Translations under genes and position numbers: made by a program
Notes under the pieces: generated by a model
Databases searched by the model: none
The model's input: the letters and a program-made list of their open reading frames with translations, nothing else
Told to the model about the DNA's origin: nothing
Shown: one piece after another, positions 22,850-28,522 of the stretch
Numbering within the stretch: position 1 is the stretch's first letter
Layout of the letters: each line of letters opens with the position of its first letter
Origin: Sphaerobacter thermophilus DSM 20745
Lineage (GTDB): Bacteria; Chloroflexota; Chloroflexia; Thermomicrobiales; Thermomicrobiaceae
Reading direction: 5' to 3'
Assembly (NCBI RefSeq): GCF_000024985.1
Contig: NC_013523.1
Span: forward strand, 992,001 to 1,056,000
Length of the DNA stretch: 64,000 nucleotides

Positions 22850-23179
22850 TCAGAGTCGCTCGAACCGCTCCACATCCAAGACGAAAACGACTGCGCCGCC
22901 GACCTCCACCTCGAAGCTGTCGCTGAGGAAGAGGAGGCCGGGTTCTAGCGCAGGGGTGTACGGCACAGCGACCTGCGTGCGGCGGCGGCAGACCTGGCTG
23001 ATAATCCCCAGCACCCGCGGCACCTCGGAGTCCTCAACGCCGATCAGCAGGCTCGTGTTTCCAGTGCGCAACAGGCTGCCGGTGCTGCTGATGCGAGTCA
23101 CGCGGTACTGGGACGCCACCAGTTCGTCGACGAGGTTGTCGGCGTCTTCGTCCTGGACGACCGCCACGATGAGCTTCAT
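22850..23179 (-). CDS. DarA/PstA-like PII-family protein (cyclic-di-AMP receptor family), copy 1
   Basis: This 109-residue protein belongs to the YaaQ/DarA (DUF970, PII-like) family, whose Firmicutes members bind cyclic di-AMP. It shows MKLIVAVVQDEDADNLVDEL, a glycine-containing strand (SSTGSLLRTGNTSLLIGVED) and the C-terminal VEVGGAVVFVLDVERFERL. A second copy at 57817-58155 shares the ends almost exactly but differs in the middle (RRRTQVAVPYTP here against CYTRTQYVNPLLP there), where DarA binds its ligand. ATG at 23179 has GAGGGGAG upstream. It precedes recA in the same direction, but recA has its own promoter. Ligand binding is inferred from the family only. Confidence 0.85.
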   Translation of the reverse strand: MKLIVAVVQDEDADNLVDELVASQYRVTRISSTGSLLRTGNTSLLIGVEDSEVPRVLGIISQVCRRRTQVAVPYTPALEPGLLFLSDSFEVEVGGAVVFVLDVERFERL

Positions 23180-23269: not shown

Positions 23270-24910
23270 TCAACTACCGGCAACGGGCGGCGCGACGCGC
23301 TCCGGATCGCTTACGGCGTGCTGATGCGCCTCGAAGCCGGGTATATCTTCGAGGACGAGCGCACGGCCGCCGAAGATCCGGTTGATCTGTGTGGCGTAGG
23401 TGAGGGAGCCGGTCAGGACCTGTCGCGGCGGGCCGTCGGCCACGACCTCCCCGTCACCCAGGAGCAGCACGCGGTCGGCGCAGACAGCCGCCAGCTCTAC
23501 ATCGTGGGTGGCCATCACGACGCAGGTACCGATACCAGCAAGGCGTCGCAGCAGCGCGATCAGCCGCTCACGCGCCTCGCCGTCGAGCCCGCGCGTCGGC
23601 TCGTCGAGCAGGAGGACTGCGGGCGCGCTAGCCAGCACTGCGGCCAGGGCGACACGCTGGCGTTCCCCGGTGCTGAGGTCGCGCGGGTTGCGCGCTGCGA
23701 GGTGGGCGACTCCTGCCATCTCCAGTGCGGGGCCGACATCTCCCGGAAGTCCGAGCGCTCGCAGGGTGAAACGCACCTCGGCCGCGACCGTCTCGTTGAA
23801 CAGCATGGCGCTGGGGTTCTGGGGCAGGTAGGCCACGGTGCGTGCCAGGTCTGGCGTCGCGGTGCCGGCGATGTCCTGGCCGCGCAGGAGGATGCGTCCC
23901 GCCGCCGGACGCAAGAGCCCGTTGAGATGCTTGAGCAGGGTGGTTTTTCCGGCGCCGTTTCTGCCCATCAGGGCGGTGACGGTGCCCTCACGGAAGACAG
24001 CGGAGACGTCCCGCAGCGTGGTGCGCTCGCCGTAGCGGAATGTGACCCCCTGCACCTCAAGGACGACGTCGCCACCGGCCGATGGGTCGTTCAGTGGGGT
24101 GACCGGGGGCGGCATGCTCTGCGCCAGGCGGCGCCCCTCCCGCACCGTGAGCGGGAGCGGGTCCCAGCCGAGTGCCAGGCCCAGCCGCACGAGCGGGGGA
24201 GGATACTGAAGTGCCGCGGCCACGCTGCGAGGCGGACCGCTCGCGACGATGCTCCCGTCCGAGCCGAGCAACAGGACGCGTTCGGCGGAGGGCAGGACGC
24301 GATCAAGGCGGTGCTCGGCGATCACGACCGTCGTCCCGAGGTCGGCGTGCAGGCGGTCGAGGACGGAAAGGACCGCTTCAGCGCTCCAGGGGTCGAGCTG
24401 CGAGGTCGGCTCGTCCAGCGCCAGTACCGGAGGACGCATCGCCATCGCCGCGGCGATCACGACGCGCTGGCGCTCACCGCCGGAGAGGGACGCGATCTCC
24501 CGGTCGCGGAGCGGCGCGATCCCGAGCAGGTCTAGCGCCTCCTCGACGCGCAGGCGGATCTCGTGGCGTGGCAGCCCGTAATTTTCCGGCCCGAAGGCGA
24601 TCTCATCCTCGACCCGGTCCATGACCGTCTGGCGCTCCGGGTCCTGGCCGACGAAGCCCACGATCCGGCCGAGGTCGGCCGGCTGCACTCGGCGGGTATC
24701 GATCCCCTGCACGAGCACCCGGCCGCCGAAGACACCGCCGTAGAAGTGGGGCACCAGCCCGTTGAGCGCGCGCAGCAGGGTCGACTTCCCCGCGCCGGAA
24801 GGTCCGGCCACGACGGTGTAAGAGCCGGGGGCCATCTCCTCGGTGATGGCGCTGAGCGCCGGCGTCGAGCGCCGTGGGTAGCGGTAGGTCAGCCGATCGA
24901 GGTGGATCAT
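23270..24910 (-). CDS. Energy-coupling factor ATPase, two ABC domains fused (EcfA-EcfA')
   Basis: This 546-residue protein holds two complete ABC domains. The first has Walker A AGPSGAGKSTLLRALNGLVP (about 35-54), the Q-loop GQDPERQT typical of ECF ATPases, signature LSGGERQRV, and LALDEPTSQLDP. The second has ALMGRNGAGKTTLLKHLNGL (about 311-330), LPQNPSAMLF, STGERQRVALA (an S-T-G-E signature) and LLLDEPTRGLDG. It would power vitamin import with EcfT. Its ATG overlaps the ecfT stop by four bases, within the cobalamin-riboswitch operon. All catalytic motifs of both halves appear intact. Confidence 0.92.
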   Translation of the reverse strand: MIHLDRLTYRYPRRSTPALSAITEEMAPGSYTVVAGPSGAGKSTLLRALNGLVPHFYGGVFGGRVLVQGIDTRRVQPADLGRIVGFVGQDPERQTVMDRVEDEIAFGPENYGLPRHEIRLRVEEALDLLGIAPLRDREIASLSGGERQRVVIAAAMAMRPPVLALDEPTSQLDPWSAEAVLSVLDRLHADLGTTVVIAEHRLDRVLPSAERVLLLGSDGSIVASGPPRSVAAALQYPPPLVRLGLALGWDPLPLTVREGRRLAQSMPPPVTPLNDPSAGGDVVLEVQGVTFRYGERTTLRDVSAVFREGTVTALMGRNGAGKTTLLKHLNGLLRPAAGRILLRGQDIAGTATPDLARTVAYLPQNPSAMLFNETVAAEVRFTLRALGLPGDVGPALEMAGVAHLAARNPRDLSTGERQRVALAAVLASAPAVLLLDEPTRGLDGEARERLIALLRRLAGIGTCVVMATHDVELAAVCADRVLLLGDGEVVADGPPRQVLTGSLTYATQINRIFGGRALVLEDIPGFEAHQHAVSDPERVAPPVAGS

Positions 24911-25914
24911 GCTGGCCGCCGTCCCTCTGAGAGCAGCGCGGGCGCTGCAATCAGGAGGCCGGCCACGCCAGGGGCCAGCGCAAACGGTGGCCAGGTAAGG
25001 CGCGGATAGGGGGAGTAGTTCAGGGCGGCAGTTGCGATCGAGGCGACGACCAGGAGCACGCCCAGCGTCGCTGTCGCCAGGATCGCGGCATCACACCAGT
25101 CCCAACTCAAGCGACGATAGCGGCCGCGCCCGTGCGTTCCCCGCCGCGCGGCCACGACCAGTCCGACGATGGGGATGAGGAACACCGCCGCGGCGAGGCG
25201 GTACCCCAGCCCGACCGCCACGGCTGATGCGGCCGCGATTGCGACCGCCGGGATTGCCCAGTGTGCCGGGATGCGCGCTGTGCGCCCGGCGCCGAAGGCG
25301 CGGCTCTCCATTGTCTCGGCCAAGTCGAAGGCGTGCTCCAGCCCGAGGGTCAGGACGGGAACCAGGAGCGGCGGCACGTCGCGGATCGAGCGGATACGGA
25401 ACCCGCGAGCCATCTGGGCCTCGCGGACCTCCCGAACCGCGCGAAGCGTCTGCGGGAAGATGCTCAGGCCGATGATGGCGGCGACCCCGACGGCCGCCAG
25501 CGGACCAGGAACCAGCCGGAGGAGCGCCGCCCGATCGACCGCCGCGCTGAACGCTGCCGCCAGCAGCAGGAGATCGAAGATCGCTAGCGCCGAGACGAGG
25601 CCGTAGACCAAGGCGTTGAGTGTCACCGGGCCGCCCACGATGGGGATCGAGTCGGGCAGGCGCGCGAGCACCCGGTCCCCAGTGTGCACGGTCAGGATGT
25701 TGAAGAGCACGCTGATCGCAGCGACCACGGCTCCGAAGCGGAGCACAGTCCCCCATGCAGCCTGGGCCACGGAGCGGCGGTCCAGTGAGAGCAGAACCGC
25801 CGCCAGGGCCGCCGTGGCGAGCATGAGGTAGAGCGGGTTGCGGGTGGTCACCACCAGCAGGGCAGATGCGCCCGCCCACGCGAGCCAGGAAACGGGGTTC
25901 ACGCGCTGGCTCAT
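24907..25914 (-). CDS. Energy-coupling factor transporter transmembrane (T) component
   Basis: This 335-residue protein is a CbiQ/EcfT-type scaffold. It has at least five hydrophobic stretches, beginning WLAWAGASALLVVTTRNPLY, and the two cytoplasmic coupling motifs: EAQMARGFRIRS (Ala-Arg-Gly) and AETMESRAFGAGRT (the second Ser-Arg-Ala form). T-components hold the two ATPases and a substrate-binding S-component together. It overlaps genes on both sides by four bases. No S-component lies in the operon, so it must use one encoded elsewhere, or the upstream secreted proteins substitute in an unknown way. Confidence 0.9.
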   Translation of the reverse strand: MSQRVNPVSWLAWAGASALLVVTTRNPLYLMLATAALAAVLLSLDRRSVAQAAWGTVLRFGAVVAAISVLFNILTVHTGDRVLARLPDSIPIVGGPVTLNALVYGLVSALAIFDLLLLAAAFSAAVDRAALLRLVPGPLAAVGVAAIIGLSIFPQTLRAVREVREAQMARGFRIRSIRDVPPLLVPVLTLGLEHAFDLAETMESRAFGAGRTARIPAHWAIPAVAIAAASAVAVGLGYRLAAAVFLIPIVGLVVAARRGTHGRGRYRRLSWDWCDAAILATATLGVLLVVASIATAALNYSPYPRLTWPPFALAPGVAGLLIAAPALLSEGRRPA

Positions 25915-26660
25915 GCCTGGCTCCCGCTCCGTCGCCGCCGGAGCACGGTGACCATCGCCACACCTGCGGCTGCGATCAGCAGCGCACCGAAGGCCAGGTA
26001 GGTTGTCGGCATCGACCCGTCGTCCTCCTCCGGCTGGGCGGTGCGGGTGGTGACCTGACCGCTGGGGTCGACCTCGACGGCCAGCACCCTCGGCTCTGCC
26101 CCGTCCCCGGCACCCTGTCCGTCGACGCCGTTCAGTCGAGCGATCTCGTCGATCGATATGGCAGGCAGTTGGGGGTCGTCAGCGGCCCAGGACCACCCGT
26201 CGACATCCCCGTCGCGGACGGTACGGTTATCCGGGCCGTTCATCTGGAGGTTCCACGTCCCGTCCGGTGTCAGGCTCAAGTACTGCCAGTAGTAGGAGGG
26301 GTTGTCGTCGCTCTGGCAGAAGCAGTCATCGGAGGGACAGCCTTCGCCGTCGAGTGAGCAGACAGCGCTGCCAAGGCCGCTGAAGGTGGTCACCTCCGTT
26401 GCGAGCCCGGATCGGGTGAGGAGCTCCATCCCTGTCAGCTCGGGCTCGGTGAACTCGACGTAGACGTAGACCAGGCGCCCGTCACCGTGGCGGACCACCA
26501 GTCCCGCCGCGTTCGTGTCAGCGGCGGCGGCTCTAGGGGAGAACACAAGTGCGGCGAGCATGGCGAGCGCCGCCAGCGCGCCGAGCACGCGGGTTGAAAG
26601 CATCACCCCCGGGCGCCCCGAACCGCGGCGGCCGGGTGGGAGAATGGTGTCGGTACTCAT
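25911..26660 (-). CDS. Membrane-anchored DUF4430/transcobalamin-beta-like protein
   Basis: This 249-residue protein has an N-terminal export signal (LSTRVLGALAALAMLAALVF), an extracytoplasmic domain, and a C-terminal membrane anchor (YLAFGALLIAAAGVAMVTVL followed by RRRRSGSQA). The middle carries four cysteines (AVCSLDGEGCPSDDCFCQSD), then YYWQYLSLTPDGTWNLQMNG and VRDGDVDGWSW, resembling the DUF4430 fold that forms the cobalamin-covering beta domain of animal intrinsic factor and transcobalamin. Its first ATG overlaps the stop of the toroid gene. Its place behind a cobalamin riboswitch, beside a toroid protein and an ECF module, supports B12 binding. The match is by eye. Confidence 0.7.
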   Translation of the reverse strand: MSTDTILPPGRRGSGRPGVMLSTRVLGALAALAMLAALVFSPRAAAADTNAAGLVVRHGDGRLVYVYVEFTEPELTGMELLTRSGLATEVTTFSGLGSAVCSLDGEGCPSDDCFCQSDDNPSYYWQYLSLTPDGTWNLQMNGPDNRTVRDGDVDGWSWAADDPQLPAISIDEIARLNGVDGQGAGDGAEPRVLAVEVDPSGQVTTRTAQPEEDDGSMPTTYLAFGALLIAAAGVAMVTVLRRRRSGSQA

Positions 26661-28183
26661 CAGTTCACCTCACGTGAGCGGGTCAGCAGCTCAACACCCA
26701 GTCGCCCGACCAGAACGTCATAGTGCGACCATGCGGCACCTGGATGCCACTCCAGCCGTGCCCGCTCGAAGTACTGAACCGTGCGGCCGTCTTCGACGAC
26801 CTCCTCGCTGATGGGATAGCCGTAGACCGAGAGCGCGCCGTAGCGCTGCCAGTAGTCGTTGAACCCGCCACAGAGGTTGTGTTGGGTCTGGGGGAAGTAG
26901 AGGCAGTCAGGTTGCTCGATCGGCTCAGCCGGAGCGAATGGTGGCGAGCTGGCGCGGCCCGCGGTGTGCTCGGAGCCGATTCGCCCGAGTAGCACGTCGA
27001 AGCGCTCCGGAGCGACGCCGGGATGCCACTCGAAACGGGCACGCTCGAAGTACGGGACCGTGCGGCCGTCCTCGATGAATTCCTCGGTGATCGGATAGCC
27101 GTAGACGGCGAGCCCGCCGTACGCGAGCCAGTAGGAGAGGAACCCGGCGCACAGGTTGTGGCCCGTCGCCGCGTAGTAGGCGCAGCTCTCCTTCGGCGAG
27201 GCCGGTTGCATCGCGCGCTCAATGGCAGTGGTGCGCCCGAAACCTGTGTGAGGCGGCACCGGGAGCGGCTGGAGGGCCAGCGCCGGGACTGCCTGGGCCG
27301 TCACGGGCAGGTTGTCGCCGGGCTCGTCAGCCCAGGCGCGCAGCGCGCCGCTGTCGTTCTGCAGGCGCTCCAGCGCGGCCATTCCGACCGCCACGGTGTC
27401 CAACGTGGCGCGCTCGCCCGCTGCGAGCATCGCCTGGATCGCGAACGCACTCGACGTGGCGTCGCCCACGGCCGGGACCTGGGCTCCGACCTGGGCGACG
27501 AACGAACCATCGTCGGTCTGCGCAGCCAGGAGGTATCCGATGCCGCGATCGACCGCGGTGGTGCCCCGCTCCCCGGCCGCAACAAGCGCCTGGATCGTGA
27601 GCGCCGTCGTGCGGCTGTCGCTCCGGCGGGATCCTTGTTCCGGGAGGGAAGACCAGCCCCCGTCGATCGCTTGAGCATCGATCAGCGCGTTGACTGCGGC
27701 AGCCGGGACCGGTTGCCTTGCCGCCGCCAGCGCCATGACGGCGAAGGCATGGTTGACGATCTGCGGGTCGAACAGGCCGGTCGCGGGGTCAAAGTTCGCC
27801 GTGAGGCGCGCGAGCAGATCTATCCCGCCGAAGTCGCGCGGGTCTACGCCGCTGGCGACCGCAACCAGCGTCAACTTCGCAGCGCCGACCGGCGTGTCGG
27901 CATAGTCGCCGGCCACGGCGCGCAGGTAGTCGATGATCGACGGACCGCCCGCTGCCACGAGATCCGGGTCAACCCCGGCCGCGGCGAAGGCGAGGGCGGC
28001 GTCGGCGGTGATCCCCGGCTCGCTGTCACCCGACTGGCTGGCAAACCCGCCATCCGGCTGCTGCTGGGTACGCAGCCAGTCAACCGCGCGGGTCACCGGC
28101 AGGCTGGGACTCCCGCGCGCTGGCGGTGCCAGACCGAGCCAGAGCGGGCTCGCCAGCACCAGGGTCGGAATCGTTCGTTGCAT
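26660..28183 (-). CDS. Secreted alpha6/alpha6-toroid protein with two GYPI repeats, B12-regulated
   Basis: This 507-residue exported protein begins with a signal peptide (MQRTIPTLVLASPLWLGLAP). Residues about 30-310 are repeats of the prenyltransferase/terpenoid-cyclase toroid: AVDWLRTQQQPDGGFASQSG, VNALIDAQAIDGGWSSLPEQ, GIGYLLAAQTDDGSFVAQVG. This is the same fold class as the alpha domain of intrinsic factor and transcobalamin. The C-terminal part has two copies of a roughly 75-residue repeat with GHNLCAGFLSYW / QHNLCGGFNDYW, VYGYPI and YFERAR.EWHPG. ATG at 28183 has GGGGGGA upstream and starts the signal peptide; the longer frame to 28231 adds 16 unlikely residues. It is first in the operon after a cobalamin riboswitch, so a cobalamin-capture role is inferred. 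Confidence 0.8.
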   Translation of the reverse strand: MQRTIPTLVLASPLWLGLAPPARGSPSLPVTRAVDWLRTQQQPDGGFASQSGDSEPGITADAALAFAAAGVDPDLVAAGGPSIIDYLRAVAGDYADTPVGAAKLTLVAVASGVDPRDFGGIDLLARLTANFDPATGLFDPQIVNHAFAVMALAAARQPVPAAAVNALIDAQAIDGGWSSLPEQGSRRSDSRTTALTIQALVAAGERGTTAVDRGIGYLLAAQTDDGSFVAQVGAQVPAVGDATSSAFAIQAMLAAGERATLDTVAVGMAALERLQNDSGALRAWADEPGDNLPVTAQAVPALALQPLPVPPHTGFGRTTAIERAMQPASPKESCAYYAATGHNLCAGFLSYWLAYGGLAVYGYPITEEFIEDGRTVPYFERARFEWHPGVAPERFDVLLGRIGSEHTAGRASSPPFAPAEPIEQPDCLYFPQTQHNLCGGFNDYWQRYGALSVYGYPISEEVVEDGRTVQYFERARLEWHPGAAWSHYDVLVGRLGVELLTRSREVN

Positions 28184-28264
28184 GGAGGTCCCCCCAGTGT
28201 ACGGCAGACAATGGGCCGTCTGCGTCCTCACGATGAGGCCGCTCAGAGGTGAGCGATTGGGGGG

Positions 28265-28291
28265 CTAGGTTCGGCGTAGCGTGGGCACCAT
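28265..28291 (-). CDS. Eight-codon leader ORF between riboswitch and operon
   Basis: Minus strand: ATG at 28291, then MVPTLRRT and TAG. It is preceded by the strongest Shine-Dalgarno in the region (GGAGGGAGG). It lies between the cobalamin aptamer and the toroid gene, where the aptamer's regulatory stem could sequester its ribosome site. Function is inferred from position only. Confidence 0.35.
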   Translation of the reverse strand: MVPTLRRT

Positions 28292-28330
28292 GGTGTCCTC
28301 CCTCCTTGGCTCGAGGCGGTTCGGACACGG

Positions 28331-28451
28331 CAGCGGCGGGTAATCTGGCTTCGCCGCGGCGAGGCGCGGCGTCACAGTTGCGGCACAGCCCCGGACTTTC
28401 ACCGGTGTTCCCCCGGGTGGACCGGCCAGGCTTAGGCCGGTACCCGCTGCC
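28331..28451 (-). ncRNA. Cobalamin (B12) riboswitch aptamer
   Basis: On the minus strand the conserved core reads GGGGGAACACCGGTGAAAGT, then CCGGGGCTG, CCGCAACTGTGACG, then GAAGCCAG and TACCCGCC. These match the cobalamin riboswitch consensus, including the B12-box region CCGCAACTGT. The closing stem is formed by GCAGCGGGTA (28441-28450) and TACCCGCCGCTG (28331-28342). It sits between the promoter at 28494-28522 and the toroid-DUF4430-ecfT-ecfA operon, which it should repress when adenosyl- or methylcobalamin is bound. Confidence 0.95.
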
Positions 28452-28493
28452 GTCGGGGATTCTCCATTGCTGTCCACGATGTGGACTCCCGTT

Positions 28494-28522
28494 AATATGG
28501 CACCGTTTTGCGGCCACGTCAA
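28494..28522 (-). promoter_or_regulatory. Promoter of the cobalamin-riboswitch operon
   Basis: Minus strand: TTGACG (plus 28517-28522), a 17-base spacer and CATATT (plus 28494-28499); an alternative -10 TATTAA overlaps it. It lies just upstream of the aptamer. Confidence 0.55.

Follow-up and report, generated by a model that had tools for sequence, protein, structure and literature searches.

Introduction

The vitamin B12 carriers of animals, transcobalamin, haptocorrin and intrinsic factor, consist of a toroid (PF01122) and a DUF4430-type beta domain. Transcobalamin-like SLBB domains were reported from bacteria by Burroughs et al. in 2007 (PMC1796856), in secreted or anchored proteins with toroids fused on either side, together with a second paralogous SLBB protein, CbiO/CbiQ operons and the absence of key enzymes for making B12; the authors proposed that B12 is scavenged, and also a lateral transfer to animals. 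The taxa covered there are low-GC Gram-positives, planctomycetes and euryarchaea, and neither 'Chloroflex' nor 'riboswitch' occurs in the text. In this study, a window of 64,000 nucleotides from Sphaerobacter thermophilus DSM 20745 (NC_013523.1, positions 992,001 to 1,056,000) was analyzed, which holds a four-gene operon behind a cobalamin riboswitch. Judged from sequence features, this operon and an S component encoded elsewhere in the genome very likely form a system for corrinoid capture and import by an energy-coupling factor (ECF) transporter. A preliminary description of the window had called the operon a bacterial counterpart of the animal B12 carriers. Both folds agree with this, but the central idea, transcobalamin-like capture combined with CbiO/CbiQ, was already predicted in 2007, and the operon is not new as a general idea.

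The operon proteins are like the animal carriers in both folds and in their predicted export; one relative (L144) has the identical domain order on one chain with a signal peptide, and the link of the window operon to B12 comes through the riboswitch. Unlike in animals, the two halves are separate proteins, one of them with a putative membrane tether, and they are predicted to serve an ATP-driven importer instead of receptor endocytosis; moreover, PF14478 and PF01122 miss the window proteins and the domain arrangement of the animal carriers is not reproduced. The branch in Chloroflexota and actinobacteria differs from the SLBB proteins of 2007 in being missed by PF14478, in its riboswitch control and split halves, and in its CbrT-like S component, its fusions of beta domain and S component and its BtuFCD-like alternative. 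In the open-access literature, subscription papers being outside the search, we found no account of this PF14478-missed branch, its riboswitch, its CbrT-like partner (in cis, in trans or fused) or its link to BtuFCD-like genes.

A requirement for B12 without the ability to synthesize it is common among bacteria, and many importers of the vitamin still await identification (PMC6072759, PMC2667541). CbrT of Lactobacillus delbrueckii (6FNP; PMC5997447) is a proven B12-specific S component. The window system shares with ECF-CbrT a related S component, a T component and ATP-binding cassette (ABC) ATPases, whereas its ATPase domains are fused and its T and A components have an operon of their own, with genes for putative extracellular capture proteins alongside. 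A Lacticaseibacillus protein is annotated in a proteomics paper as 'additional lipoprotein component of putative cobalamin ECF transporter' (PMC9963975), which suggests that a similar helper had been annotated there. The BtuG and BtuH lipoproteins of Bacteroides, as described in two reports (PMC6143338, PMC8941943), likewise capture B12 at the surface and feed an importer, a role that is predicted here; BtuG and BtuH act with the TonB-dependent BtuB at an outer membrane. Two NCBIfam families from Streptomyces with consecutive locus numbers, to which no function is assigned there, also match below their cut-offs: SCO2321_fam matches the toroid protein (8e-20, 71 bits against 300) and SCO2322_fam the beta-domain protein (4e-5, 24 bits against 85).

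Results

Organization of the operon

The operon occupies positions 28522-23270 of the minus strand, in the following order:

28494-28522, minus strand: promoter-like site TTGACG-17-CATATT (consensus match only, 9/12 positions; mean of shuffles 0.0)
28318-28463, minus strand: cobalamin riboswitch aptamer RF00174 (covariance model, 38.5 bits against a gathering threshold of 31.5, E = 3.3e-6)
26660-28183, minus strand: toroid protein, 507 amino acids (match to SQHop_cyclase_C)
26663-27193, minus strand: two tandem repeats of ~85 amino acids at the C-terminus of the toroid protein (49/94 alignment columns identical)
25911-26660, minus strand: DUF4430/transcobalamin-beta-like protein, 249 amino acids (by fold comparison)
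24907-25914, minus strand: ECF T component, CbiQ family (PF02361, coupling motifs)
23270-24910, minus strand: fused ECF ATPase with two CbiO-type ABC domains, 546 amino acids (TIGR04520, motifs)

The four consecutive genes overlap by 1, 4 and 4 bases. Promoter, riboswitch and overlapping genes had been recognized in the preliminary description, whose span for the whole operon (24907-28522) leaves out the ATPase gene at 24910-23270. No second RF00174 match was found in the 3.99 Mb genome (two contigs). No ECF S component is encoded in the window operon.

The beta-domain protein

The protein has a signal-like N-terminal helix and a C-terminal transmembrane (TM) helix from residue 222, a sequence feature in keeping with the earlier suggestion that this half is held by its C-terminal helix. 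It had been described as DUF4430-like, which is true of the fold but not of the Pfam profile: DUF4430 (PF14478) has no match at E<=1 in the window protein or its genome, and one match (0.13) was obtained among 41 aligned members. An AlphaFold model of residues 38-185, built from 41 aligned sequences, reaches a pLDDT of 92.5. Its top eight Foldseek matches in the PDB are transcobalamin, the isolated beta domain of transcobalamin, haptocorrin, intrinsic factor and 3u7z (E = 1.3e-4, probability 1.00). VIA-align gives Z scores of 11.1-12.5 to the B12 carriers and 3u7z, with root-mean-square deviations (rmsd) of 1.6-2.9 over 95-102 residues, and at most 5.4 to the next family. We take 3u7z, a bacterial structural-genomics protein, to be of DUF4430 type. 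By its modelled fold, then, the window protein is of the DUF4430/transcobalamin-beta type. Cysteines at residues 101 and 113 are kept in 40 of the 41 aligned sequences and perhaps form a disulfide. A search of the beta-domain profile against PDB sequences with hmmsearch returned mostly antibody chains at chance level (E>=0.02).

The toroid protein

A signal peptide is followed by an alpha6/alpha6 toroid (about residues 25-325) and two C-terminal repeats (331-505). The toroid fold had been predicted correctly, although the repeats were overlooked. The latter have no Pfam match and probably serve as a surface-attachment module; about 20 further sites of the genome match them. SQHop_cyclase_C of Pfam matches the protein at 5.9e-12, and squalene-hopene cyclase profiles match all 37 aligned toroids. 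Cobalamin_bind (PF01122), which had been proposed as a check, has no match to the window toroid at E<=1, the curated cut-off not being reached; six of the 37 aligned toroids match it at E<=1, the best at 8.8e-6. Taken alone, the toroid does not speak for B12, since the VIA list places it nearer to squalene-hopene cyclases. The two proteins have the folds of the two transcobalamin halves, as had been claimed, with Foldseek and VIA matches of the window beta domain and of a fused relative to the animal B12 carriers. Triple toroids within one protein also exist and adjoin beta-domain genes in two loci (L137, 7806-10562, minus strand; L187).

Natural fusions of toroid and beta domain

Single-chain fusions were found among the relatives in both orders, which argues that toroid and beta domain belong together. 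The beta domain precedes one or two toroids in L122-L128, L130, L132, L134, L145 and L056, and follows them in L091, L129, L142, L143 and L144. A toroid followed by a beta domain on one chain is not found in the window, where the halves are two genes. In the L144 protein, a signal peptide precedes a single toroid and a single beta domain, which are followed by a proline-rich stalk and a C-terminal helix; as read from its sequence, this is the domain order of transcobalamin plus a membrane anchor. The model of its toroid and beta domain (pLDDT 93.7, pTM 0.80) gives as its first 14 Foldseek matches chains of transcobalamin, haptocorrin and intrinsic factor without exception, spanning both domains, with E from 2.8e-11 to 9.3e-8.

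The ECF transporter and its S component

The T component matches CbiQ (PF02361) with 30.1 bits against a cut-off of 25 and carries the coupling motifs ARG at 169 and SRAFG at 204. The fused ATPase matches TIGR04520 with 339.7 bits against a cut-off of 315, and possesses the Walker A, signature and Walker B motifs twice each. T component and ATPase had been regarded as a complete ECF module, but the operon lacks an S component; one is encoded in trans, about 1.6 Mb away (G000:C1:2666838-2667620; PF12822, 54-56 bits against 30.7). The profile of this S family matches the genome's own copy at E = 1.7e-90 and, among PDB sequences, CbrT (6fnp_A) at E = 6.8e-8, with the next match at 0.07. The unlinked S component is inferred to work with the T and A components of the operon. 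A PF12822-type S family lies near the operon in 50 of 84 relatives' loci, and L123-L127 have it joined to the beta domain on one chain, replacing the anchor. Among 301 Chloroflexota genomes, the S family was found in 71, the beta domain directly in 71 (window genome included) and both in 66 (Fisher p = 5e-54, uncorrected for phylogeny).

Two other candidates for the S component were rejected. A second PF12822 protein of the window genome (L157) gave no match to the S profile. The T component carries two extra TM helices (~217-260) compared with the short form of some relatives; these were dismissed as an S substitute since many relatives are without them and a real S component exists.

The S gene directly follows a BtuF-like (PF01497) gene in the window genome, and a BtuF-like gene also adjoins S in four related contigs (L160, L161, L168, L177). 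In L156 (6850-8645), a BtuF-like gene overlaps the CbrT-like S gene by 4 bases with no BtuCD adjoining. It would be uncommon for an ECF S component to be paired with an extracellular binding protein. The window genome has four matches to FecCD permeases, the best two being a tandem pair at C2:139377-141379. In L056 (10626-14714, plus strand), S, T and ATPase domains are found in a single reading frame.

Operons of relatives and the B12 regulon

The 6 kb upstream of each of 72 homologous loci were surveyed for a riboswitch in the same orientation. RF00174 precedes 64 of them at a median distance of 1283 bp, against about 0.14% expected per locus by chance, and in 32 genomes besides that of the window it is the sole match. 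As had been anticipated, the homologues thus nearly always lie within B12 regulons. The riboswitch was found before all ten Anaerolineae-type loci scanned and before the actinobacterial loci L227, L235 (Janibacter terrae), L237 and L238. Note that these counts are not independent events, because the loci of one phylum are related. Reduced operons (L077 and L081-L090, of families f25 and f49) consist of the riboswitch, a small anchorless beta-domain protein, T, A and mostly S.

Five genomes with the beta domain are without the S family, among them G198, G094 and G230. The locus in G198 (L044, 3861-16424) encodes a double toroid, two beta-domain proteins, BtuF-, BtuC- and ABC-ATPase-like proteins, a second permease and a 2Fe-2S ferredoxin, and no ECF T or S component was found in it; toroid and beta domain are laid out in the same way in G094 and G230. 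Because this locus without S has BtuFCD-like genes beside toroid and beta domain, it suggests that the capture module can serve another, BtuFCD-like importer.

Metabolic context

Inspection of the translations by eye indicates a methylmalonyl-CoA mutase and a MeaB-like gene in the window genome. Among TP-methylases, the only clear ones resemble, also by eye, RsmI and a MazG fusion, and corrin ring synthesis therefore appears to be absent.

Discussion

Proposed mechanism

When cobalamin is scarce, the riboswitch would leave the operon on, as known for RF00174. The toroid protein would be exported and probably held at the surface through its C-terminal repeats, and the transcobalamin-beta-like protein exported and tethered by its C-terminal helix, both locations being predicted from sequence features. 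Toroid and beta domain may then trap cobalamin or another corrinoid, for example cobinamide, between them as transcobalamin does, for which the folds, the natural fusions and the 2007 prediction speak. The tethered beta domain would pass the ligand to the CbrT-like S component, a hand-over supported by the natural fusions of beta domain and S. T component and fused ATPase would drive import as in the ECF mechanism, and the imported corrinoid would feed methylmalonyl-CoA mutase. Ligand binding, complex formation and transport by the operon proteins are all inferred in this scheme, and enclosure of the ligand by a two-piece transcobalamin is plausible.

A fuller version can be put forward only tentatively, as a possible account that we would not yet favor: the split halves would be an inducible two-piece transcobalamin of the cell surface, which closes on a corrinoid, docks on the CbrT-like S component and hands the ligand directly to the ECF transporter; the module would be interchangeable between ECF- and BtuFCD-type importers and represent, in disassembled form, the ancestor from which the animal carriers came.

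The operon would provide a complete, riboswitch-marked parts list for one B12 importer, including capture proteins, S, T and A components, and leads to the proposal that an extracellular carrier feeds an ECF transporter. With proteins of thermophiles, both split and fused, it becomes possible to test whether animals acquired their B12 carriers from bacteria, as proposed in 2007.

Evidence to the contrary and alternative explanations

Several observations weigh against capture by both halves and import through the unlinked S component. The S gene of the window genome is unlinked, with no cobalamin riboswitch near it. The toroid is closer to squalene-hopene cyclases than to B12 carriers, both by sequence and by VIA (Z of 26 against about 20, for the toroid of the fused relative). 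Within the stretches retrieved, the f25 and f49 loci encode a beta domain with T, A and S components and lack a toroid, which is thus dispensable in some cases. Finally, the domains of the L144 model are placed differently from those in transcobalamin crystals (rmsd ~22 A over 335-346 residues, in a model without ligand or inter-domain error estimate), so that a shared sandwich is hypothetical; the Foldseek matches support both folds and their order, but not the sandwich.

The alternative to be taken most seriously, though we regard it as unlikely, is that the operon serves chiefly for the uptake of cobinamide or further incomplete corrinoids, and not of finished cobalamin, with completion by CobU, CobS and CobT in the cell. 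Genes for CobS, CobT and a CobC-like phosphatase are found within several relatives' operons, adjoining the beta-domain gene, and the work on CbrT used both cobinamide and cobalamin (PMC5997447). However, none of these three genes is present in the window operon (the rest of its own genome was not searched), and a system of broad specificity would take both cobinamide and cobalamin.

Slightly more doubtful is the view that the beta-domain protein alone binds the corrinoid, with the toroid as a surface scaffold or co-receptor instead of one half of the pocket. This would fit the f25 and f49 loci, in which riboswitch, beta domain, T, A and S do without a toroid, and also the fused-relative model, which does not reproduce the arrangement in transcobalamin. 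In most other loci, however, toroid and beta domain are adjoining or fused, in both orders, and in transcobalamin one B12 molecule is sandwiched by both domains (reviewed in PMC1796856).

The T and A components belong to families named for cobalt transport (CbiQ, CbiO), and the ECF module might carry cobalt ions as in the CbiMNQO type, with the riboswitch reflecting the cobalt demand of B12 synthesis. This is very improbable, as the S component is a PF12822 protein whose profile extends to the B12-specific CbrT, and the surface proteins have their matches among B12 carriers; moreover, no sign of corrin ring synthesis was seen in the genome, without which cobalt uptake for B12 would be pointless.

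Least probable of all is a role of the toroid protein as a terpene-metabolizing enzyme that lies in the operon by chance, as its best sequence and VIA matches, the squalene-hopene cyclases, might suggest, since the catalytic DxDD motif of these enzymes is present in neither the window toroid nor any of the 37 aligned toroids, a signal peptide is present, and relatives fuse the toroid to transcobalamin-beta-like domains.

Neighboring gene

Between the ATPase gene and a RecA-like gene, a protein of 109 amino acids is encoded at 22850-23179 on the minus strand, which by eye resembles cyclic-di-AMP receptors of the PstA/DarA type. A similar gene is present in L032, and the cluster containing the L032 gene recurs in five loci.

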